NCBI GenBank assembly: GCA_017463225.1
Contig: JAFTPO010000014.1
Location: forward strand, 62,001-126,000
Direction of reading: 5' to 3'
From: Lachnospiraceae bacterium
Lineage (GTDB): Bacteria > Bacillota > Clostridia > Lachnospirales > Lachnospiraceae
Length of the DNA: 64,000 nt
Shown in pieces: positions 12,369-22,687 of the stretch. A program made the translations under genes and the position numbers. Numbering within the stretch: the first letter of the stretch is position 1; every line of letters begins with the position of its first letter. The notes under the pieces are model-generated. The model was given only the letters and a program-made list of their open reading frames with translations, was not told where the DNA came from and ran no database searches.

Positions 12369-12944
12369 ATGTCAGTAGAAAAATTCGGCAAAATAACAGT
12401 AGAAACATGTAATATAGAGGGCTTAAAGGTTATCACACCTTCAGTGTTCGGTGATGAGAGAGGCTACTTTATGGAGAGCTACAACTACAATGATTTCGCG
12501 GCAGCAGGAATCGACTGCCAGTTTGTACAGGATAACCAGTCAAGCTCAAAGAAGGGTGTATTAAGAGGCCTTCATTTCCAGATAAACTATCCACAGGACA
12601 AGCTTGTAAGAGTAGTAAGCGGAGAGGTATTTGACGTAGCGGTAGACCTTAGAGAGGGCTCACCAACCTACGGACAGTGGTATGGTGTAACCTTATCAGC
12701 AGAGAATAAGAAGCAGTTCTTCATCCCTAAAAATTTCGCTCACGGGTTTATAGTTCTCTCAGAAAGCGCAGAATTCTGTTATAAGTGTACAGACTTCTAT
12801 CACGGCAATGATGAGGGCGGACTGCTCTGGTGCGACCCTGAGATAGGAGTAGAGTGGCCACTTCCAGAAGGAATGACTAGAGAGGATTTAGTTATTTCTG
12901 AGAAGGATCAGAAGTGGAGTGGAATTAGAGAGTTGAGGAAGTAG
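12369..12944 (+). CDS. rmlC: dTDP-4-dehydrorhamnose 3,5-epimerase
   Basis: A 191-residue cupin enzyme of dTDP-L-rhamnose synthesis that epimerises C3 and C5 of dTDP-4-keto-6-deoxyglucose. Seen: 'DERGYFMESYN' near residue 28, 'QDNQSSSKKGVLRGLHFQ' with the catalytic His, 'GEVFDVAVDLR', and 'FFIPKNFAHGFIVLSESAEF'. The length is normal. TAGGAGGAGC sets the start. It is the first gene of the operon; rmlA, rmlB and rmlD are not in the window and must lie elsewhere if rhamnose is made. An alternative is supply of another dTDP-6-deoxyhexose, since rffA downstream also needs the RmlA/RmlB product. Confidence 0.92.
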   Translation: MSVEKFGKITVETCNIEGLKVITPSVFGDERGYFMESYNYNDFAAAGIDCQFVQDNQSSSKKGVLRGLHFQINYPQDKLVRVVSGEVFDVAVDLREGSPTYGQWYGVTLSAENKKQFFIPKNFAHGFIVLSESAEFCYKCTDFYHGNDEGGLLWCDPEIGVEWPLPEGMTREDLVISEKDQKWSGIRELRK

Positions 12945-12955
12945 GAGATTTTGTT

Positions 12956-13759
12956 ATGAGTGTATTTTCCGCTACAGGAGATATGATTAAAAAACGAAAT
13001 ATGATATGGGAATTATCCAAAACAGATTTCAAGAAAAGGTTTGCCGGATCCTATTTTGGAATGGTTTGGATGTTTGTTCAGCCTATGGTTACTGTATTGA
13101 TATATTACTGTGTTTTTCAGCTTGGATTTAAGGCTAATCCGCCATCTGCTATTGATGCGCCATATGTGCTGTGGCTTATACCAGGTATAGTACCATGGTT
13201 TTATTTTAGCGAGGCTGTGCAGGCTGGAACAAGTTCCTTGTATGATTACAACTATCTTGTGAAAAAGGTTGTATTCAAAGTAAGTGTTATCCCTTTTATT
13301 AAGAATATATCATGTGCGTTTGTACACTTTATCTTTATTTACATTATGTTGGCGGTGTTTTTGTTATATGGTTACACACCAGAGTTAAGCTGGATACAGA
13401 TATTTTATTATTCTGTGTGTGCATTTGCTCTAATTGCTGGTATCGTGCTTATAACATCTTCCATAATGGCGTTCTTTAAGGATATGGGACAGATTGTGGG
13501 AATAGCCATTCAATTCGGAATGTGGATAACACCTATAATGTGGGATTACAATATGTTTGGTGAGAAAATAGTGCCAATCTTAAAGCTCAATCCATTTTTC
13601 TATATCTCAGAGGGGTATAGAGATAGTATGCTCAATGGAGTGTGGTTTTGGGAGCGACCTTTTGAAACATTATATTTTTGGGTAGTAACAGGGATTATTT
13701 TCGCATTGGGAACAAAATTGTTCAAAAAGTTGAGACCACATTTTGCTGATGTATTATAA
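12956..13759 (+). CDS. wzm: ABC-2 type polysaccharide export permease (Wzm/RfbA type)
   Basis: A 267-residue membrane protein with about six spans. Features of polysaccharide ABC-2 permeases are seen: 'RDLIWELSKTDFKKRF'-type amphipathic N-terminus ('MIWELSKTDFKKRFAGSYFG'), 'LGMVWMFVQP'-like 'FGMVWMFVQPMVTVLIYY', the 'WLIPGIVPWFYFSEAVQAG' segment and a C-terminal 'KKLRPHFADVL'. It should form the channel that moves undecaprenyl-diphosphate-linked polysaccharide across the cell membrane. AGGAG at 12946-12950 serves the ATG. It is followed within 14 nt by its ATPase. In Gram-positives TagG, for teichoic acid, is the other member of this family; the glycosyltransferase-rich surroundings favour a glycan cargo. 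Confidence 0.9.
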   Translation: MSVFSATGDMIKKRNMIWELSKTDFKKRFAGSYFGMVWMFVQPMVTVLIYYCVFQLGFKANPPSAIDAPYVLWLIPGIVPWFYFSEAVQAGTSSLYDYNYLVKKVVFKVSVIPFIKNISCAFVHFIFIYIMLAVFLLYGYTPELSWIQIFYYSVCAFALIAGIVLITSSIMAFFKDMGQIVGIAIQFGMWITPIMWDYNMFGEKIVPILKLNPFFYISEGYRDSMLNGVWFWERPFETLYFWVVTGIIFALGTKLFKKLRPHFADVL

Positions 13760-13773
13760 GGAGATTGGTAAAA

Positions 13774-15057
13774 ATGGATGTTATAAATGTAGAACACGTG
13801 TCAAAGGTTTATCCTTTGTATGACAAAACAATAGATAGATTAAAGGAGACTTTGTCCCTGACTAAAAAGACATATCATAAGGATTTTTATGCGTTAAATG
13901 ATATTAATTTTAAGGTGGGCTCAGGGGAGACAGTTGGAATCATAGGAACCAATGGTTCCGGTAAGTCAACTATTCTGAAGATTATAACTGGCGTATTAAC
14001 TCCAACAACAGGTAATGTCAGCGTAAATGGTAAGATTTCTGCCTTGCTTGAATTGGGAGCAGGATTTAATCAGGATTATACCGGTATGGAAAATTTGTAT
14101 ATGAATGGAACTATGATGGGATACACCAAAGAGGAGATGGAGGAAAAAATACCAGAGATATTAGCATTTGCTGATATAGGTGATTTTGTACACCAACCCG
14201 TTAAAACATATTCCAGCGGTATGTTTGTAAGACTGGCATTTGCATTGGCTATAAACGTAGAACCTGAGATATTGATTGTAGATGAGGCGTTAGCGGTAGG
14301 AGATATATTCTTCCAAAACAAGTGTTACAAGAGAATGGCTGAGATAAAGGAAAAAGGAACAACTATTCTAATGGTAACACATGATATGAGTAGCATAATA
14401 AAGTATTGTGATAGAGTTGTTTTATTAAATAAGGGTACCATGATTTCTGAGGGTGAACCTGGGGAGATGGTGGATATCTATAAGCGTATATTGGCGAATC
14501 AGTACGATGAAGATGTTCAGGATACAGAAGCTGGTGATGAGCTTGCATCTGATGATAATAAAACATCTGCTTCTTGTGTGTGGAAGGAAAGTATGGGTGC
14601 TAATTCGTCATTTACAGAATATGGAGACAAGAGATTAGAGATAATAGATTTTGGTATATTTGATAACAAAGGAAGATTATCTAATATTATATCAAAGAAC
14701 GAAAAGTTTACTATAAAGCTTAAAATCAGCGTGAATGAGCAGGTCGAAAGCCCTATATTTGCCTATACAATAAAGGATAGAAAAGGTACAGAGTTAACTG
14801 GAACTAATACCTTTATAGAGGAAGTAAATACTAGCGAGGTTGTTGGTGGTAAGTGTTATGTGGTATCTTTTGAACAGGTGGCGAGTCTTCAGGGAGGCGA
14901 GTATTTGTTGTCCTTTGGATGTACGGGCTATGAGGGAGATGATTTAAGTGTTTTCCATAGATTGTATGATATGACATATCTAACTATTTTATCAGAGAAG
15001 AATACAATCGGTTACTATGATATGTATTCTGATGTTATGTTAGAGGTGTTAGAATAG
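13774..15057 (+). CDS. wzt: Polysaccharide ABC transporter ATPase with C-terminal Wzt domain
   Basis: A 427-residue protein. The ATPase has Walker A 'GTNGSGKST' at 58-66, the signature 'YSSGMFVRLAFALAI' from 146 and Walker B 'ILIVDEALAVGD'. From about residue 270 to the end is a beta-sandwich extension ('RLEIIDFGIFDNKGR', 'FTIKLKISVNEQ', 'LQGGEYLLSFGC') of the Wzt_C type. In E. coli O8/O9a that domain binds the modified chain end and makes export depend on termination. I choose ATG 13774 because AAGGAG at 13758-13763 is 10 nt upstream; a TTG at 13765 sits too close to it. The C-terminal domain links directly to the next two genes, a methyltransferase and a kinase-like protein. Confidence 0.9.
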   Translation: MDVINVEHVSKVYPLYDKTIDRLKETLSLTKKTYHKDFYALNDINFKVGSGETVGIIGTNGSGKSTILKIITGVLTPTTGNVSVNGKISALLELGAGFNQDYTGMENLYMNGTMMGYTKEEMEEKIPEILAFADIGDFVHQPVKTYSSGMFVRLAFALAINVEPEILIVDEALAVGDIFFQNKCYKRMAEIKEKGTTILMVTHDMSSIIKYCDRVVLLNKGTMISEGEPGEMVDIYKRILANQYDEDVQDTEAGDELASDDNKTSASCVWKESMGANSSFTEYGDKRLEIIDFGIFDNKGRLSNIISKNEKFTIKLKISVNEQVESPIFAYTIKDRKGTELTGTNTFIEEVNTSEVVGGKCYVVSFEQVASLQGGEYLLSFGCTGYEGDDLSVFHRLYDMTYLTILSEKNTIGYYDMYSDVMLEVLE

Positions 15058-15070
15058 TGTGGAGGTTTTG

Positions 15071-15964
15071 ATGAACGATATTTTAAACTTGAAGTTTTAT
15101 TCAGGGAAGGACCTGTATAGTGATGGTGATATAGAGGATGAATTGTTGGATATAGTATCAAAATATGATGACTATTCTGAGGTTTTAAAGAAAGATGATA
15201 GATGGCCGATTTTATATCATTTATCTCCTATAAGACATAATTTATTACAGTGGTATGATTTCAAGGAGAACGCAACAATACTTGAAATTGGCGCAGGCTG
15301 TGGCGCTATAACAGGTTGTTTATGTGAGAAGGCCAAAAAGGTTACATGTGTGGAGCTTTCAAAAAGAAGGTCTACTATTAACGCAACCAGAAACAAGAAA
15401 TATAATAATTTTGAGATTATGGTTGGTAATTTCGAAGATGTTGTTATAGAAGAGAAATTTGACTATGTAACACTTATAGGAGTGCTGGAATATGCTCCTA
15501 GCTATATAAAGTCGGACAATCCGTTTAATGAGATGCTTGATAGAATAAAGGGTTATCTAAAGCCTGATGGTAAGGTAATTATTGCCATAGAAAATAGATT
15601 TGGAATTAAGTATTTTTCTGGAGCAGCAGAGGACCATACTGGAAGATTGTTTGATGGTATTAATGGATATATAGATGTAAGCTCTGTAAGGACATTCTCT
15701 AAGAAGGAATTAAAGGAATTGTTGTCTAATGTGGGCTTTGTTAATCAGGAGTTTTATTATCCGCTACCTGATTATAAGATGCCTAATGTCGTATATTCGG
15801 ATTATCATCTTCCTAAAAGGGGAGAGTTGAGTAATATGGCATACTCATACGATAGAGACAGATTTGGGTTTTTTAATGAAAATATAGTTAATGATTGTTT
15901 TTGTGATGCTGGAATAATGGATTTTTTTGCAAATTCGTTTTTAGTTATTGGAGATATGGGATAA
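15071..15964 (+). CDS. SAM-dependent methyltransferase, possible chain-terminating type
   Basis: A 297-residue class I methyltransferase. Motif I is 'ILEIGAGCGAITG' near residue 76, followed by 'VTCVELSKRR' (acidic motif II), 'FDYVTLIGVLEYAPSY' and 'GYLKPDGKVIIAIENRFG'. The tail ends 'FFANSFLVIGD'. GGAGG at 15061-15065 sets ATG 15071; a GTG at 15059 has no ribosome site. The gene lies directly between wzt and a kinase-like protein, with a 12-nt gap to the latter's start. In WbdD of E. coli the same two activities are fused and cap the O chain with methyl-phosphate, which Wzt then recognises. Methylation of an internal sugar is the plain alternative. Confidence 0.82.
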   Translation: MNDILNLKFYSGKDLYSDGDIEDELLDIVSKYDDYSEVLKKDDRWPILYHLSPIRHNLLQWYDFKENATILEIGAGCGAITGCLCEKAKKVTCVELSKRRSTINATRNKKYNNFEIMVGNFEDVVIEEKFDYVTLIGVLEYAPSYIKSDNPFNEMLDRIKGYLKPDGKVIIAIENRFGIKYFSGAAEDHTGRLFDGINGYIDVSSVRTFSKKELKELLSNVGFVNQEFYYPLPDYKMPNVVYSDYHLPKRGELSNMAYSYDRDRFGFFNENIVNDCFCDAGIMDFFANSFLVIGDMG

Positions 15965-15976
15965 ATGGAGGAAAAC

Positions 15977-18900
15977 ATGAGTCGTACCTTGTATGTAAAA
16001 TACAACAGAAATAGAAAAGTTGAGTTTCAAACAAGCACAAAAATATGCGAGGATAATGGTGTAAAATATGTCATTAAAGAAGGCTTAAACCCTCAGGCAA
16101 TCCAGCATGTAAAAAGCATGAGAGGATATTTTGATTTGCTTAATTCAGAATATTCTAATGTTAAAGCGGTAGAGTGTTATGATGAAAAAGCTGGAATGCG
16201 ATTTGAGTTTATAGAGGGTACTTCTGTTAAGGAATTGCTATTCGATAAATTAGCGAATGTCGAAAAAAGTGAGTTTTTGAGTTATCTGTCAGATATAGTT
16301 AAGATTTTGTTTGAAAAGAATAGCGAAAGCGTTGAATTCGAGAATACAGCAGAAACTGTATCTATTTTTGGTGAGATTGATTACGAAGGATCTGCTTCGA
16401 GCAAACACAACATAGATATGATATTTGATAATATCATTTTAACCACTTCGGGGTACGTATGCCTAGATTATGAGTGGTTTTTTGATGTGTTAATCCCTGA
16501 TGCTTTTTCAAGGTTTAGAAGTGTGTATTATTTTTTTCAGGAAAATGAAAATCAGCTTAAGCAGCATGGCGTAAGCTTTGAGGATTTATGTTCAACTATA
16601 GGAATTTCTGCTGATGAGATAGAACAGTTTTTGTCAATGGAAGAGTGCTTTCAGACGTGGGTTGTAGGTGAGGAAAACTATAGTATCAGATATGTTCAAA
16701 ATATTTTTACAGAAAAGATAGAAGATATTAAGAAGACTAATGATGAATTCTCGGCTCACTTAAAAAAACTTGATGAAGAAATTGCATTAAGAGACAAGGA
16801 AATCCTAAGATTACAGGAAGAACATGAAAAAACTGTATCTAATTTAAAGACTGCGTGGGCAGAGATTGAGAAGTGCAGAGAGATTATCGACCACTATAAG
16901 GCAGAGAGCGAAGACTATAGAAAACAGGCGGAAGAGTTTGCGCAACAGACAGAGGACTTAAAACAGCAAGCTGAAGAACTTACAAAAGAGAAAGAAGTCT
17001 TAGATTATAAGTTAAAAAAGAAAGACAAAATAATATATGACAAGGATGTTCATATCGGCAACCTGGAATATCAGATGTCTTTAAAAGACAACCATATAAA
17101 CAATATTGAGCCTGGATATCGCAGATATAGACAATTGGTTGAAAGTCCGGCAGGAAGGGTAGCAAAGTTTCCTGTTAGAGCTTGTAGAAAAATTAAGAGA
17201 ACAGTGGACGAGAACAAGTCTATTAATAAGCTTAAGGTGCCTAGCTCAAGTAACCCAGAGGTATCTATAGTAATACCTGTGTATAACCAGTTTGACTACA
17301 CATACGAGTGTATAAAGTCTATTATAGAATATACCAATGATGTTAAGTATGAGATTATAGTTGGCGATGATGTGTCCACAGACAAAACGGTGTCTATTAG
17401 CAAATACATTAAGGGTATTAATGTTGTAAGAAATCAGGAGAATCTCAAGTTCTTACTGAATTGCAATAACACAGCTAAGCAGGCAAAGGGACAGTATATA
17501 CTATTTCTAAATAATGATACAAAGGTTACTGAAGGTTGGCTATCCAGCTTAGTTGAGTTAATTAACTCAGATGAAAGTATCGGTATGGTGGGCTCTAAGC
17601 TTATATATCCTGACGGAAGACTTCAGGAGGCTGGAGGTATCATTTGGAGGGATGCTTCCGCATGGAATTACGGTAATGGTCAGGATCCTGAAAAACCTGA
17701 GTTTAATTATGTTAGAGATGTAGATTATATATCTGGAGCTTCTATTATGATTAAGAAGGAGCTGTGGGACAAGCTAGGTGGATTTGATGAAGAGTTTGCG
17801 CCTGCGTATTGTGAAGACTCAGATCTTGCATTTCAGGTCAGACAGCAGGGCTATAGAGTTGTATACCAGCCAAAGTCTGTAGTAGTGCATTTTGAGGGAG
17901 TATCTAATGGAACAGATACAAGTACAGGATTAAAGCACTATCAGGTGGTTAATAATGAAAAGCTTAAGACAAAATGGGCAGATGAATTGTCTAAGCACTA
18001 TGACAACGGAGAATACGTTTTAAAAGCTAAGGACAGATGTTTCGGAGACAGAAAGACAATTCTCTTTATCGATCATTATGTACCTCAGTTTGACAAGGAT
18101 GCAGGTTCTAGAACAGTATTCCAATATGTGAAGATGTTCGTTAAGAAGGGGTATGTGGTTAAATTTATCGGAGATAACTTCTTTAAGCATGAGCCATATA
18201 CTACCGTACTTAATGAGATGGGAGTTGAAGTGCTTCATGGTCCTTGGTATGCGCAGCATATATTTGAGTGGTTAGAAGAAAACAGAGATTGTATAGATTA
18301 TGTATTTATGAACCGCCCTCATATATCTGAGAAATATATCGACTTCTTTAAGGAGAAGATGAAAGCTAAGATAATATATTATGGACATGATTTACATTTC
18401 CTTAGAGCAAATAGAGAGTACGAGCTTACAGGAGAAGAGGATAAGAGACTGGAGGCTTTGGCATGTAAGGAACAGGAACTAGCTATTATGAAGAAGGCTG
18501 ATGTGGTTTATTACCCTTCTGTGGTTGAGGAAAAGATGATAAAGGAAACTGATTCATCTATTTATGTAAAAGCACTGGTTCCTTACGTATATGATAAGTT
18601 TATAGATTATAACAGAAACTCTAAGAAAAATAAGGGAATTCTCTTTGTGGGAGGATTCGCACACACTCCTAATGTAGATGCTGTAAATTGGTTCGTGGAA
18701 GAGGTTTATGGCAAGATTAAGGACAAGCAGGATATACCTTTCTATGTAGCAGGATCTAATCCACCGGAAGAGGTGCTTGCATACCATGGAAATGGTATAG
18801 ACATAAAGGGCTTTGTGTCTGATGAGGAGCTTGAGAATCTATACAGTAGCTGTAAGCTGGTTGTAGTACCGCTTAGATATGGAGCAGGTGTAAAGGGTAA

Positions 18901-19144
18901 GGTTGTAGAGGCTATATACAATGGAGTGCCAATAGTAACTACAAGTGTAGGTGCTGAGGGAATACCAGAGGCTGATAAAATTCTAAATATAGAAGATGAA
19001 GCTAATGAATTCGCAGATGCAGTTGTTAAACTCTATAATGATGATGCTAAATTAGATGAGATATCACGTAATATGCAGAGCTATATCAAGGATAATAACA
19101 GTATAGAGGCTGCATGGAAGGTAATAGGAGAGGACTTTAGTTAG
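15977..19144 (+). CDS. Kinase-like, coiled-coil, GT2 and GT4 fusion protein
   Basis: A 1055-residue protein. Residues 1 to about 240 look like a small-molecule/LPS-kinase fold: Lys34 in 'KYVIKEGL', a catalytic-loop pattern His144...Asp147-x4-Asn152, then Asp164 in 'CLDYEW' at the DFG position. About 130 residues (245-375) are strongly coiled-coil, with heptads of E/K/L and an 'EEFAQQTEDLKQQAEELTKE' run. A GT2 domain begins near 428 ('EVSIVIPVYNQ', 'ILFLNNDTKV', 'CEDSDLAFQVR'). From about 685 a GT4-like domain follows ('ILFVGGFAHTPN', 'PLRYGAGVKGKVVEAIYNG'). ATG 15977 is chosen because GGAGG (15967-15971) precedes it. Kinase plus coiled coil after a methyltransferase and wzt mirrors WbdD, whose coiled coil measures chain length. 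Kinase activity is inferred from pattern only. Confidence 0.8.
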   Translation: MSRTLYVKYNRNRKVEFQTSTKICEDNGVKYVIKEGLNPQAIQHVKSMRGYFDLLNSEYSNVKAVECYDEKAGMRFEFIEGTSVKELLFDKLANVEKSEFLSYLSDIVKILFEKNSESVEFENTAETVSIFGEIDYEGSASSKHNIDMIFDNIILTTSGYVCLDYEWFFDVLIPDAFSRFRSVYYFFQENENQLKQHGVSFEDLCSTIGISADEIEQFLSMEECFQTWVVGEENYSIRYVQNIFTEKIEDIKKTNDEFSAHLKKLDEEIALRDKEILRLQEEHEKTVSNLKTAWAEIEKCREIIDHYKAESEDYRKQAEEFAQQTEDLKQQAEELTKEKEVLDYKLKKKDKIIYDKDVHIGNLEYQMSLKDNHINNIEPGYRRYRQLVESPAGRVAKFPVRACRKIKRTVDENKSINKLKVPSSSNPEVSIVIPVYNQFDYTYECIKSIIEYTNDVKYEIIVGDDVSTDKTVSISKYIKGINVVRNQENLKFLLNCNNTAKQAKGQYILFLNNDTKVTEGWLSSLVELINSDESIGMVGSKLIYPDGRLQEAGGIIWRDASAWNYGNGQDPEKPEFNYVRDVDYISGASIMIKKELWDKLGGFDEEFAPAYCEDSDLAFQVRQQGYRVVYQPKSVVVHFEGVSNGTDTSTGLKHYQVVNNEKLKTKWADELSKHYDNGEYVLKAKDRCFGDRKTILFIDHYVPQFDKDAGSRTVFQYVKMFVKKGYVVKFIGDNFFKHEPYTTVLNEMGVEVLHGPWYAQHIFEWLEENRDCIDYVFMNRPHISEKYIDFFKEKMKAKIIYYGHDLHFLRANREYELTGEEDKRLEALACKEQELAIMKKADVVYYPSVVEEKMIKETDSSIYVKALVPYVYDKFIDYNRNSKKNKGILFVGGFAHTPNVDAVNWFVEEVYGKIKDKQDIPFYVAGSNPPEEVLAYHGNGIDIKGFVSDEELENLYSSCKLVVVPLRYGAGVKGKVVEAIYNGVPIVTTSVGAEGIPEADKILNIEDEANEFADAVVKLYNDDAKLDEISRNMQSYIKDNNSIEAAWKVIGEDFS

Positions 19145-19145
19145 A

Positions 19146-19718
19146 ATGTGTAAGAAAAAAATCCTATACGCTATAATTGCATTAATGGTATTAGTGCTGT
19201 GCTATGTAATAGGACAGACAGTTGTGAAGCCGAGTCGTGAGGATGGAGAGGTATCACAAACAGAGCGGGAAACAGATCCCTATTACAGCTTCTTCCATAA
19301 GGGAGATGAGCTTAAATTAGTGGGCTATGCTGAAACTACGGATATGCCTGGAGGAAAGACAGTTGGAGTGGTGGAGGACGATGTCTATGATACATGGATT
19401 TTGATGACACCTCATACTTCCGTGGAGGCAGGTGTGGTGTTGGATGATGCTAGTAGAACCCTAAACTTCACTTATGTAATACACAAAAATGTGTCAGAGC
19501 TATCTGATGGTATGAGTTTGTTGGTTGAGGTAGTTAATGCTGATACAAGTGATGTATGGTATAGTCAGAAATTAACAGTGGACTCAGCAGAAAAAGTGTG
19601 TGACATAGACTTGTCGGAATACAGTAATAAAAATGTTACTATTAGATTATCAGCAGTAGAACACACTGAGGACGAGACAGGAGATTGGTTGGTTATACAA
19701 AATGCTATAATTAACTAA
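19146..19718 (+). CDS. Membrane-anchored extracytoplasmic protein, unknown
   Basis: A 190-residue protein with 'KKK', then one strong hydrophobic segment (about residues 6-23), a Ser/Glu-rich spacer and a beta-rich domain of about 130 residues ('RTLNFTYVIHKNVSELSDG', 'VWYSQKLTVDS', 'GDWLVIQNAIIN'). The single N-terminal span suggests an anchored domain outside the cell. It begins one base after the preceding stop, with only a distant purine stretch as ribosome site, so it is probably translationally coupled. I do not recognise a family. Similar beta modules are attached to multi-span glycan enzymes in this operon (for example the C-terminus of the acyltransferase at 22719), which hints at a glycan-handling role. 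That is inference. Confidence 0.6.
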   Translation: MCKKKILYAIIALMVLVLCYVIGQTVVKPSREDGEVSQTERETDPYYSFFHKGDELKLVGYAETTDMPGGKTVGVVEDDVYDTWILMTPHTSVEAGVVLDDASRTLNFTYVIHKNVSELSDGMSLLVEVVNADTSDVWYSQKLTVDSAEKVCDIDLSEYSNKNVTIRLSAVEHTEDETGDWLVIQNAIIN

Positions 19719-19746: not shown

Positions 19747-20757
19747 ATGATTATAACAAAAACACCTTTTAGAATGTCGTTTTTTGGTGGCGGAACAGAT
19801 ATGCCTGAATTCTTTAACGAGCATGGAGGAGCAGTTATTTCTACTACCTTTGATAAATATTGTTATGTAAATGTAAGACATCTTCCAAGATTCTTCGATT
19901 ACAAAACGGAGCTTGCCTACTCCAAGATGGAAAGAGTTGTGGATGTTAATGAGATAGTGCATCCGGCAATCCGTGAAGCTATGAAATACTTGGATATGCA
20001 TGAGATTAGATTGACTTACGAGGCAGATTTACCGGCACGTTCAGGTCTTGGTACAAGTAGTTCCTTTGCAGTTGGTATGCTTAGTGCATTCTACGCACTA
20101 AAGGGAAAATATGCAGATAAGAAAAAGCTAGCTGATGATGCCATATATTTAGAGAGAACTTTATGTAATGAGGCGGGAGGATGGCAAGATCAGATAGCTG
20201 CATCCTACGGTGGACTTAACAGAATAAATTTCAATTCTGATGGATACACCGTTGATCCGATTATAATATCACCTGAAAGAAAAAAGTGCTTGAACGATAA
20301 TCTGATGTTGTTCTTTACTGGATTTACCCATTTTTCTGCGGAGGTACAGGCATCAGTTGGCAAGGTCGATAAAACCAAAGAAAAACTAGAGATGCTTAAG
20401 CTGGTTGACGATGCTCAGAGTATATTGACAGATAAGACCAGGGATTTAGATGATTTCGGTAGGTTGTTAGATCTGACTTGGAGATTAAAGAGACAGACCG
20501 GTGCGAAGATATCAACAGATTCCATAGATACATTATATGATAGGGGAATAAAGGCTGGTGCCTTAGGCGGTAAGCTTCTGGGAGCAGGTGGCGGTGGATT
20601 CTTATTATTTTACGTAGAGCCTGATAAGCAGGAGTCTGTGCGCAAAGCTATGTCAGACCTAATGTATGTTCCGTTTGAGTTTGAAAACGCAGGAACCAGA
20701 GTAATACACTTTACACCAGAGACGTATATTCCTGTAGAAGAAGAGAATTATATTTAA
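19747..20757 (+). CDS. hddA: D-glycero-alpha-D-manno-heptose-7-phosphate kinase
   Basis: A 336-residue GHMP kinase that would phosphorylate heptose 7-phosphate at C1. Seen: the N-terminal 'TPFRMSFFGGGTDMPEFF', which is typical of HddA, the ATP loop 'PARSGLGTSSSF' from residue 96, 'GGWQDQIAASYGG', and the C-terminal 'GALGGKLLGAGGGGFLLF'. GGGAGG at 19736-19741 sets the start. The next two genes supply the other enzymes of the same pathway. L-fucose kinase-like GHMP enzymes share the fold, but the gmhA/gmhB neighbours make heptose the best reading. Confidence 0.9.
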   Translation: MIITKTPFRMSFFGGGTDMPEFFNEHGGAVISTTFDKYCYVNVRHLPRFFDYKTELAYSKMERVVDVNEIVHPAIREAMKYLDMHEIRLTYEADLPARSGLGTSSSFAVGMLSAFYALKGKYADKKKLADDAIYLERTLCNEAGGWQDQIAASYGGLNRINFNSDGYTVDPIIISPERKKCLNDNLMLFFTGFTHFSAEVQASVGKVDKTKEKLEMLKLVDDAQSILTDKTRDLDDFGRLLDLTWRLKRQTGAKISTDSIDTLYDRGIKAGALGGKLLGAGGGGFLLFYVEPDKQESVRKAMSDLMYVPFEFENAGTRVIHFTPETYIPVEEENYI

Positions 20758-20772
20758 TTGGAGATGAAACAT

Positions 20773-22044
20773 ATGAAGATAGTAATTATGGCAGGTGGAA
20801 AGGGTACTAGAATAGCTGAGGTTAATTCAGAGGTACCAAAGCCAATGATACCTATAATGGACAAGCCTATACTTCAGTACGAGATAGAATGTGTTAAGAA
20901 GCAGGGTTTTACAGACATCATACTTGTAGTAGGTTACCTAGGGAAGGTGGTTCAGGACTACTTTGGAGATGGTAGCCAGTTTGGCGTGTCTATAGAGTAT
21001 ATAGTTGAGGAAAGTCCTTTGGGTACAGCGGGAGCACTGTATCTGTTAAAGGATAAGATAGATGATGATTTTCTTCTGCTTAATGGTGATATTATCTTCG
21101 ATGTAGATTTTCATAGATTTTATGAGGCTCACAAGGCCAATGGAAGTGTAGCAACTATTCTAACACATCCAAACAATCATCCATATGATAGTGGAATTAT
21201 CGTAGCGGATAAGAATGGAAGAGTCTTAAACTGGTTGCATAAGGAGGATGAGAGACTGTGGTATCAAAACCGCGTAAATGCGGGCCTTCACATGCTTTCA
21301 CCGACAATATTCGATAGATTTACGGAATTGAAAAAAGTAGATTTGGATAGAGACGTACTTAAGCCGTTGATAAGTGAGGGTGAGCTATATGTGTATGATT
21401 CTCCGGAATACATCAAGGATATGGGAACCCCAGATAGATTCTATGCGGTTATAGGGGATATTAAGTCTGGCAAGGTTGAAAGCAAAAATCTTAGTAATAA
21501 GCAGAAGGCAGTGTTCCTTGATAGAGATGGTACTATAAATAAGTATGTTGGATTCTTAAGAAATATAGATGAGTTTGAGCTTATAGATGGTGTAGCCGAA
21601 GCTATCAGAAAGATTAACGAGAGTGGGTATCTGGCTATAGTAGTGACTAATCAGCCTGTAATCGCAAGAGGTGAAGTTACCTTAGAGGAACTGCAGGAGA
21701 TTCACAATAAGATGGAGACATTACTTGGTCAAGAGGGTGCTTATGTAGACGATATATATTACTGTCCTCATCATCCAGATAAGGGTTTTGAGGGAGAAAG
21801 ACTAGAGTACAAGATGATATGTGAGTGTCGTAAGCCGAAGCCAGGTATGCTTGTAGAGGCGGCTAAGAAGTACAATATAGACTTAGCGGAGTCCTATATG
21901 GTAGGCGATGGTAAGAACGATGTAGAAGCTGGCAAGGCAGCAGGCTGTACAAGTGTGATAATAGGAGATGAGGTTTGTGATTGCGAAAACAGATATGAAA
22001 GCTTGCTAAGCTTTGTGGATGTTATGATAGATGGAGGGAAATAG
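20773..22044 (+). CDS. Fused HddC nucleotidyltransferase and GmhB phosphatase
   Basis: A 423-residue bifunctional enzyme. Residues 1 to about 235 are a sugar-nucleotidyltransferase with 'AGGKGTR' at 7-13, 'VPKPMIPIMDKPIL' and 'FLLLNGDIIFDVD', as expected for HddC, which makes GDP-D-glycero-alpha-D-manno-heptose. Residues about 243-423 are a HAD phosphatase with 'FLDRDGTIN' (Asp250, Asp252), the zinc-site cysteines 'YYCPHHPDKG' and 'CECRKPKPGM', and 'MVGDGKNDVEAG', as in GmhB, which removes the 7-phosphate. Two consecutive pathway steps are thus in one chain. ATG 20773 is best served by GGAG at 20760-20763; a TTG at 20758 and an ATG at 20764 lie too near that site. Confidence 0.88.
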   Translation: MKIVIMAGGKGTRIAEVNSEVPKPMIPIMDKPILQYEIECVKKQGFTDIILVVGYLGKVVQDYFGDGSQFGVSIEYIVEESPLGTAGALYLLKDKIDDDFLLLNGDIIFDVDFHRFYEAHKANGSVATILTHPNNHPYDSGIIVADKNGRVLNWLHKEDERLWYQNRVNAGLHMLSPTIFDRFTELKKVDLDRDVLKPLISEGELYVYDSPEYIKDMGTPDRFYAVIGDIKSGKVESKNLSNKQKAVFLDRDGTINKYVGFLRNIDEFELIDGVAEAIRKINESGYLAIVVTNQPVIARGEVTLEELQEIHNKMETLLGQEGAYVDDIYYCPHHPDKGFEGERLEYKMICECRKPKPGMLVEAAKKYNIDLAESYMVGDGKNDVEAGKAAGCTSVIIGDEVCDCENRYESLLSFVDVMIDGGK

Positions 22045-22045
22045 C

Positions 22046-22687
22046 ATGAGTAAGGTATATGAATATCTTGATGAATTAGTTGAAAGATATCCATGCTTAA
22101 AGATATGCAAGGATGATATAAACAAAGCCTTTGAAATAATTAGAGATAGCTATAATGTAGGAGGGAAGCTTCTTGTGGCTGGAAATGGTGGAAGCGCAGC
22201 TGATTCAGAGCATATCGTTGGAGAGCTTATGAAGGGCTTTGTGAAACCAAGACAGCTAGACAAGGATATACAGGATAAGTTATCTGAGGTTGATACAGAA
22301 ATGGGTAAGGTGCTTGGTGAAAAGCTTCAGGGAGCATTACCAGCCATAGCGTTAGTTGATCATGTTGCTTTATCAACGGCTTACCTTAATGATATGGATC
22401 CACTGCTAGGATTTGCCCAGCAGTTATACGGATATGGAAATAAAGAAGATGTATTTCTTGCTATATCTACTTCTGGTAATTCACAGAATATTTTATATGC
22501 TTGTACTGTTGCCAAGGCAAAGGGACTTAAGGTAGTAGGGCTGACAGGTAAGGATGGTGGAAAGTTAAAGGATATGTGTGATGTTGCAATTGTGGTGCCA
22601 GAGGCAGAGACCTTTAAGATACAGGAGTTACATCTTCCGGTGTATCATTGCTTGTGTTTGATGTTGGAAGAGAAAATGTTTAAGTAA
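22046..22687 (+). CDS. gmhA: Sedoheptulose-7-phosphate isomerase
   Basis: A 213-residue SIS-domain isomerase that turns sedoheptulose 7-phosphate into D-glycero-D-manno-heptose 7-phosphate. 'GNGGSAADSEHIVGELMKGF' from residue 46 is the GmhA phosphate/substrate loop; 'ALVDHVALSTAYLNDMDP', 'AISTSGNSQNI' and 'HLPVYHCLCLMLEE' follow as in the family. GGAGGG at 22033-22038 sets ATG 22046, one base after the previous stop. With hddA and the hddC-gmhB fusion it completes the GDP-heptose route without the bifunctional HldE of the ADP-heptose route. Confidence 0.92.
   Translation: MSKVYEYLDELVERYPCLKICKDDINKAFEIIRDSYNVGGKLLVAGNGGSAADSEHIVGELMKGFVKPRQLDKDIQDKLSEVDTEMGKVLGEKLQGALPAIALVDHVALSTAYLNDMDPLLGFAQQLYGYGNKEDVFLAISTSGNSQNILYACTVAKAKGLKVVGLTGKDGGKLKDMCDVAIVVPEAETFKIQELHLPVYHCLCLMLEEKMFK

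Follow-up and report, generated by a model that had tools for sequence, protein, structure and literature searches.

The locus described here probably encodes a glycan chain terminator coupled to an exporter, of the kind represented by Klebsiella pneumoniae O7 ORF6, with its methyltransferase (MT) and its kinase (KIN) split into two adjacent genes. In the window, the whole 64,000-nucleotide stretch of DNA that was analysed, the ORF list placed Wzm, Wzt, MT and a large multidomain protein contiguously, all on the plus strand, with the following features:

12956..13759, plus strand: Wzm, glycan exporter ABC-2 permease (PF01061, E=2.1e-12; equivalent place in relatives)
13774..15057, plus strand: Wzt, exporter ATPase with ABC_tran and C-terminal Wzt_C (PF00005, E=1.3e-23; ATG 13774 with a ribosome site)
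About 14614-15024, plus strand: Wzt_C domain of Wzt (PF14524, E=2.3e-36)
15071..15964, plus strand: MT, stand-alone SAM methyltransferase (Pfam Methyltransf_23, E=1.2e-10; conserved in family alignment A1; ribosome site 5' of ATG 15071)
15977..19144, plus strand: large protein, KIN - coiled coil - GT2 - GT4 (ORF calls, Pfam and ribosome site)
15977..16687, plus strand: KIN, predicted kinase domain of the large protein, ending at about residue 241 (invariant columns, AlphaFold model, APH-type profile and fold matches)
16697..17104, plus strand: coiled coil of the large protein, residues 245-380 (heptad period 3.5; rod rule 232-380)
17264..17899, plus strand: GT2 glycosyltransferase module, residues about 434-645 (PF00535 at 434-557, E=1.6e-24; PF13641 at 431-645)
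18062..19141, plus strand: GT4-type glycosyltransferase module, from about residue 700 to the C-terminus (PF13692 at 890-1026, E=1.3e-24)

Ribosome sites of the GGAGG type, read by eye, favoured the starts at 13774, 15071 (MT) and 15977 (large protein); alternative starts were present at GTG 15059 for MT and ATG 15965 for the large protein, and it is from these two that residues are numbered here. The ORFs, their order and their starts agreed with those of an earlier note on this DNA, the Wzm gene lying just 5' of the stretch covered there, and the Pfam matches listed above confirmed both the C-terminal beta domain of Wzt, for which that note had proposed a Wzt_C HMM search, and the GT2 and GT4 modules. 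The top solved-structure match of the C-terminal part of Wzt was 2r5o (E=1.4e-5). Chondroitin synthase was the top PDB match of the GT2 module, and the GT4 module had no PDB match at E 0.01. The genome itself contains a single copy of such an MT. Directly 3' of the large protein lies a 190-residue ORF (19146-19718) whose N-terminus is hydrophobic and which matched no Pfam family at E 0.01. An rmlC-like gene (12369-12944) precedes the exporter, and 3' of the terminator (19747-22687) come a gene resembling HddA, whose 125 bits fall short of the curated cut-off, an HddC-like/GmhB fusion, of which the GmhB part exceeds the PRK08942 cut-off, and a GmhA-like SIS gene; judged from these gene similarities, the glycan may contain rhamnose and D-glycero-D-manno-heptose. 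Further along the window (27088-49920), genes for a nucleotidyltransferase, two aminotransferases, a TPP enzyme, epimerases, GtrA, YfhO, DUF2142 and several GT2 proteins were identified, which could possibly serve chain decoration after export.

The first 240 residues of the large protein gave no Pfam family match. In the KIN alignment of 70 relatives (the window protein and 69 of the 73 extracted relatives), K38, D151, N156, D168 and E170 were the sole invariant columns. Counted from 15977, the first four are K34, D147, N152 and D164, the very residues in which the earlier note had recognised a kinase-like pattern, and their conservation across the 70 rows exceeded chance. The AlphaFold model of KIN (pLDDT 93.6, pTM 0.89) located K38 within the third strand (33-40), D151 and N156 in the loop between strands 143-145 and 157-160, and D168 just past strand 163-166, a placement which, in our reading of the model, would correspond to the order seen in kinases. 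The top Foldseek match of this model was LicA (4r7b, E=2.6e-6), followed by macrolide and aminoglycoside phosphotransferases, with modest TM-scores of 0.37-0.53 among the best 50 of 1887 matches. The hhalign comparison of KIN with 18 APH proteins reached 95.1% (E=3.2e-8), with the catalytic Asp/Asn/Asp aligned, versus 8.2% for 19 protein kinases and 0.07-1.03% for seven controls (reversed APH, reversed kinases, MT, WztN, WztC, Wzm and GT2). Against the PDB, the KIN profile matched JAK kinases at E=0.04 among the 40 matches listed, which is weak though suggestive. Pfam searches with the 70 KIN members returned no kinase family and no APH at E 0.5 among the 25 of 58 matches listed, and phmmer with the KIN sequence alone retrieved a designed repeat protein as its sole match. 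The invariant residues, the fold matches and the profile comparison identify KIN as an APH-like kinase by sequence and predicted structure, with an overall similarity that is modest. The fold of residues 1-240, on which the earlier note had made its proposal depend, thus came out as kinase-like in the AlphaFold, Foldseek and hhalign analyses.

The same note had described the terminator as WbdD-like. No WbdD entry, recognised by what we take to be the WbdD PDB codes, was present among the PDB matches listed for MT (55), KIN (40) and the fused profile (60 of 112), nor among the best 50 of 1887 Foldseek matches to the KIN model. Membership in WbdD by sequence was rejected on the PDB results, and because of them the term WbdD-like is kept for function only. 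The kinase fold, the coiled coil, Wzt_C and the split logic of that comparison stood, whereas the sequence relationship was not seen and the best folds were of the APH type.

As judged from their sequences, MT and KIN appear to constitute one unit. A search of 99 relatives, the own genome included, detected KIN in 36. In the first set of 35 KIN loci, MT and KIN were fused in 9 and separate in 26, the latter including long chains of the L037 type; one locus (L062) had KIN without MT beside it. An independent MT search yielded at least 575 relatives. Among the best 80, MT and KIN were fused in 21, and in 53 the ORF following MT encodes KIN. Of the 6 others, two (L123 and L144) are loci at which the contig ends; at another locus (L095), KIN lies directly 3' of an MT that was missed by ORF calling, and L107, L113 and L086 are described below. 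KIN was carried by 76 of these 80 loci, Wzt_C by 68 and Wzm by 63. The two locus sets overlap, leaving 102 distinct MT-KIN pairs, 29 fused and 73 split, and in the split pairs the median stop-to-start distance was 0, with 67 of the 73 at 30 bases or less. Because relatives join the same MT and KIN in one chain, the terminator is considered to be split over two genes here, as the earlier note had supposed. On a quick tree of 104 sequences (the 102 pairs and two Gram-negative proteins) with long branches and without bootstrap values, in which some splits could be assembly errors, the fused or split state changed at least 17 times, or 14 times when only starred branches were counted. The state was also clustered on this tree, since none of 500 shuffles gave so low a number (shuffled mean about 27 changes). 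In a mirror-tree test, MT and KIN distances were positively but modestly correlated, with a partial r of 0.32 that none of 999 permutations reached.

In the phylum sample, MT occurred in 12 of 398 genomes and KIN in all twelve of those; of the ten genomes whose loci were examined, seven had the two domains fused and three adjacent. The phylum-wide KIN search pointed to four genomes beyond the twelve, namely G457, in which the match is to a paralogue that ends in a cytidylyltransferase-like domain, and G251, G341 and G489, with matches at E 0.003-0.008. By these searches, the terminator kind appears to be scattered through Bacillota. Several variants were also observed. A second, shortened MT copy sits between MT and KIN in L107:7959-10448:+. 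An intact MT accompanies a degenerate kinase in L113:4031-5791:+ and an MT has no adjoining KIN in L086:7974-8876:+; both are possible methyl-only terminators. The paralogue of L159:3436-5694:- and L160:3802-6177:- combines MT-like and KIN-like (D-x4-N...D-x-E) domains with a C-terminal cytidylyltransferase-like domain, its MT-like part seemingly lacking the SAM glycine motif, and could possibly be a kinase feeding nucleotide transfer.

By sequence comparison, the nearest described enzyme appears to be K. pneumoniae O7 ORF6 and not WbdD. According to the available part of the published account, O7 ORF6 adds a phosphate to the chain end and afterwards a methyl group, the D441A substitution abolishes phosphorylation, the otherwise unannotated kinase domain resembles AmiN, and the terminator is joined via a coiled coil to two polymerising glycosyltransferases (PMC11231755). 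The link between the window and O7 runs via one relative and the published O7 residue numbers. This relative, a 1457 aa protein encoded 3' of Wzm and Wzt on a Pseudomonas asturiensis plasmid (L147), comprises MT, KIN and two GT2 modules; the MT profile scored it at 211 bits and the KIN profile at 30 bits. Its Y28, Y66, G91, G93, E112 and Y158 carry the residue numbers published for O7 ORF6, the equivalents in the window MT being Y20, Y53, G78, G80, E99 and Y145, and its D443 aligns with D151 of the window protein, the catalytic residue of O7 being D441. The six MT columns were kept in 22 aligned rows, except that some rows carry Asp instead of Glu at the E112 column; all 22 rows share D151, N156 and E170, and K38 and D168 are each present in 21, P. 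asturiensis having His at the first of these and Citrobacter Glu at the second. A Citrobacter braakii plasmid (L148) encodes a 649-residue MT-KIN form. The similarity of KIN to these Gram-negative domains was weak (30 and 11.6 bits, with E computed over four sequences). By these comparisons MT is homologous to the O7-type family and KIN, with weaker support, to the O7 kinase. From the P. asturiensis residues and the published O7 numbers, the window system is therefore regarded as a split version of the O7-type terminator. Both Gram-negative MT-KIN terminators lie beside Wzm/Wzt on plasmids, so the module can be plasmid-borne.

Between KIN and the glycosyltransferases, residues 245-380 contain a single Pro/Gly and have a best period of 3.5, and none of 5000 composition shuffles matched this 3.5-residue periodicity; a cruder rule assigned a coil tract to residues 232-380, beginning at the KIN end. 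By the periodicity test and the crude rule, the coiled coil that the earlier note had put at about 130 residues spans about 130-150. Under the crude rule, tracts of at least 28 residues were found in 98 of the 102 relatives, tracts of at least 60 in 66 and none in 4, the longest having 283 residues, and heptad periodicity was clear in 48 of the 75 tracts of at least 50 residues. In this family the MT-KIN split goes with polymerase fusion, as 33 of the 73 split cases, versus 2 of the 29 fused ones, have a GT2 module in the same chain as the kinase (raw counts, kinship ignored). The combination of GT2 and GT4 seen in the window recurred in at least 9 of the best 80 MT loci. In the 1869-residue KIN protein of L041:9580-15189:+, the first GT2 match starts from residue 1207, which implies a very long spacer.

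From this architecture we infer a working model in which the substrate would be a lipid-linked glycan, lengthened in the cytoplasm by the GT2 and GT4 modules, perhaps together with other transferases of the cluster. KIN would sit at the far tip of a rod some 19-22 nm long, so that the chain would meet it only at a certain length, and would phosphorylate the terminal sugar once the chain end arrives. The separate MT, working with KIN, would then methylate the terminal phosphate, and growth would stop; the resulting methyl-phosphate cap would be read by Wzt_C and the finished chain exported by Wzm/Wzt.

Other assignments of the cap and of the rod have to be weighed against this model. KIN might cap the chain with a phosphate or cyclic phosphate, and MT might methylate a hydroxyl group of a sugar or some other target, so that no methyl-phosphate is formed. 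The Clostridium difficile SLCT-11 glycan, which ends in 2,3-cyclophospho-rhamnose (PMC6254364, as far as available), and the strongly diverged MT found beside KIN in L045 and L053 would fit such a cap; we nevertheless hold it to be improbable, as MT keeps its SAM residues (66 invariant positions are listed for alignment A1) and, going by the residue numbers that link it to O7, belongs to the family that methylates phosphate there. A direct O-methyl cap placed by MT on the sugar, as in E. coli O8 WbdD and Geobacillus WsaE, with KIN in some other role such as chain binding or phosphorylation of a precursor, appears highly improbable. KIN accompanies MT in 76 of the best 80 (of at least 575) loci and in 12 of 12 phylum MT genomes, and its catalytic residues are invariant over 70 rows, even though such caps are described in the accessible accounts of a Gram-positive system (PMC2943079) and of O8 (PMC3482155), and the KIN paralogue fused to a cytidylyltransferase-like domain indicates that KIN-type domains can serve other reactions.

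The coil, in turn, might merely join oligomers or tether the glycosyltransferases to the terminator without measuring chain length. Its range from none to 283 residues, with 4 of 102 relatives lacking one by the crude rule, gives this some weight, and we consider it unlikely rather than improbable; the WbdD and O12 WbbB coils set chain length, according to the part of the published account available (PMC11231755), and the coil of the window protein has the terminator on one side and the glycosyltransferases on the other, as the ruler model requires. Measurement by the rod and capping with methyl-phosphate are kept as the preferred reading.

A wider proposal is made tentatively and with somewhat more doubt than confidence. 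Many Bacillota may cap exported glycans with methyl-phosphate by means of an unannotated APH-type glycan kinase and a partner MT that have been repeatedly fused and split, with cap chemistry, ruler length and polymerase recombinable gene by gene; other phosphate caps, for example that of the C. difficile S-layer glycan, may also be made by members of this kinase family. If this were true, methyl-phosphate termination with a built-in ruler would be a recurring module of Clostridia and Bacilli rather than being confined to a few Gram-negative O antigens. A kinase domain outside every Pfam family would gain a testable assignment, a Gram-positive phosphate cap would have a candidate enzyme family, and the natural set of split and fused forms could be used to ask why MT and kinase must cooperate.

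Among known systems, O7 ORF6 shares with the window an MT, a kinase of the APH/AmiN-like type outside any family, a coiled coil, C-terminal glycosyltransferase modules and Wzm/Wzt export, and its six SAM-site residues and catalytic Asp map onto the window MT and KIN via P. asturiensis. In contrast to this single chain, MT and kinase of the window are two ORFs; the modules are GT2 and GT4 instead of two GT2, and the system is probably Gram-positive, whereas O7 ORF6 serves a Gram-negative O antigen. O7 ORF6 also has a CBM-like domain between kinase and coil, the need for which is described as unclear in the available part of the account (PMC11231755), whereas none was seen in the window protein, whose coil abuts KIN. 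E. coli O9a WbdD likewise has MT, kinase and coiled coil, and the proposed end-capping logic with Wzt_C is alike, but WbdD recruits its polymerase while the window terminator is fused to polymerase glycosyltransferases; the kinase fold is common to both, APH-type matches ranking first for KIN versus the tyrosine-kinase-like, Src-like description of WbdD (PMC3482155, as accessible). K. pneumoniae O12 WbbB also combines terminator, coil and two polymerising glycosyltransferases in one chain, its terminator being a Kdo transferase, unlike that of the window (PMC11231755). Fusion of ruler and polymerase is thus already known from O7 and O12. Two Gram-positive systems are similar by description. 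Geobacillus stearothermophilus WsaE, a methyltransferase with two rhamnosyltransferase domains, caps an S-layer glycan of a Wzm/Wzt system, but its cap is 2-O-methyl and the available text mentions no kinase, whereas the window has KIN (PMC2943079). In C. difficile SLCT-11, which has an ABC exporter, the phosphate at the non-reducing end was proposed by the authors to act as a terminator, and the accessible part of the report names no enzyme for it; this phosphate is cyclic, whereas methyl-phosphate would be expected in the window system (PMC6254364). The earlier statement that no Gram-positive case had been described accordingly holds for an MT-kinase terminator, none described as such having been found in literature that included few subscription journals, but capping by WsaE and the SLCT-11 phosphate cap had already been published. 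The novelty lies in a predicted terminator of kinase and methyltransferase that is split, joined to a polymerase and spread in Bacillota. The observation itself is real, and the parts form a coherent whole. The locus is ordinary in its logic and new in its form and host range.
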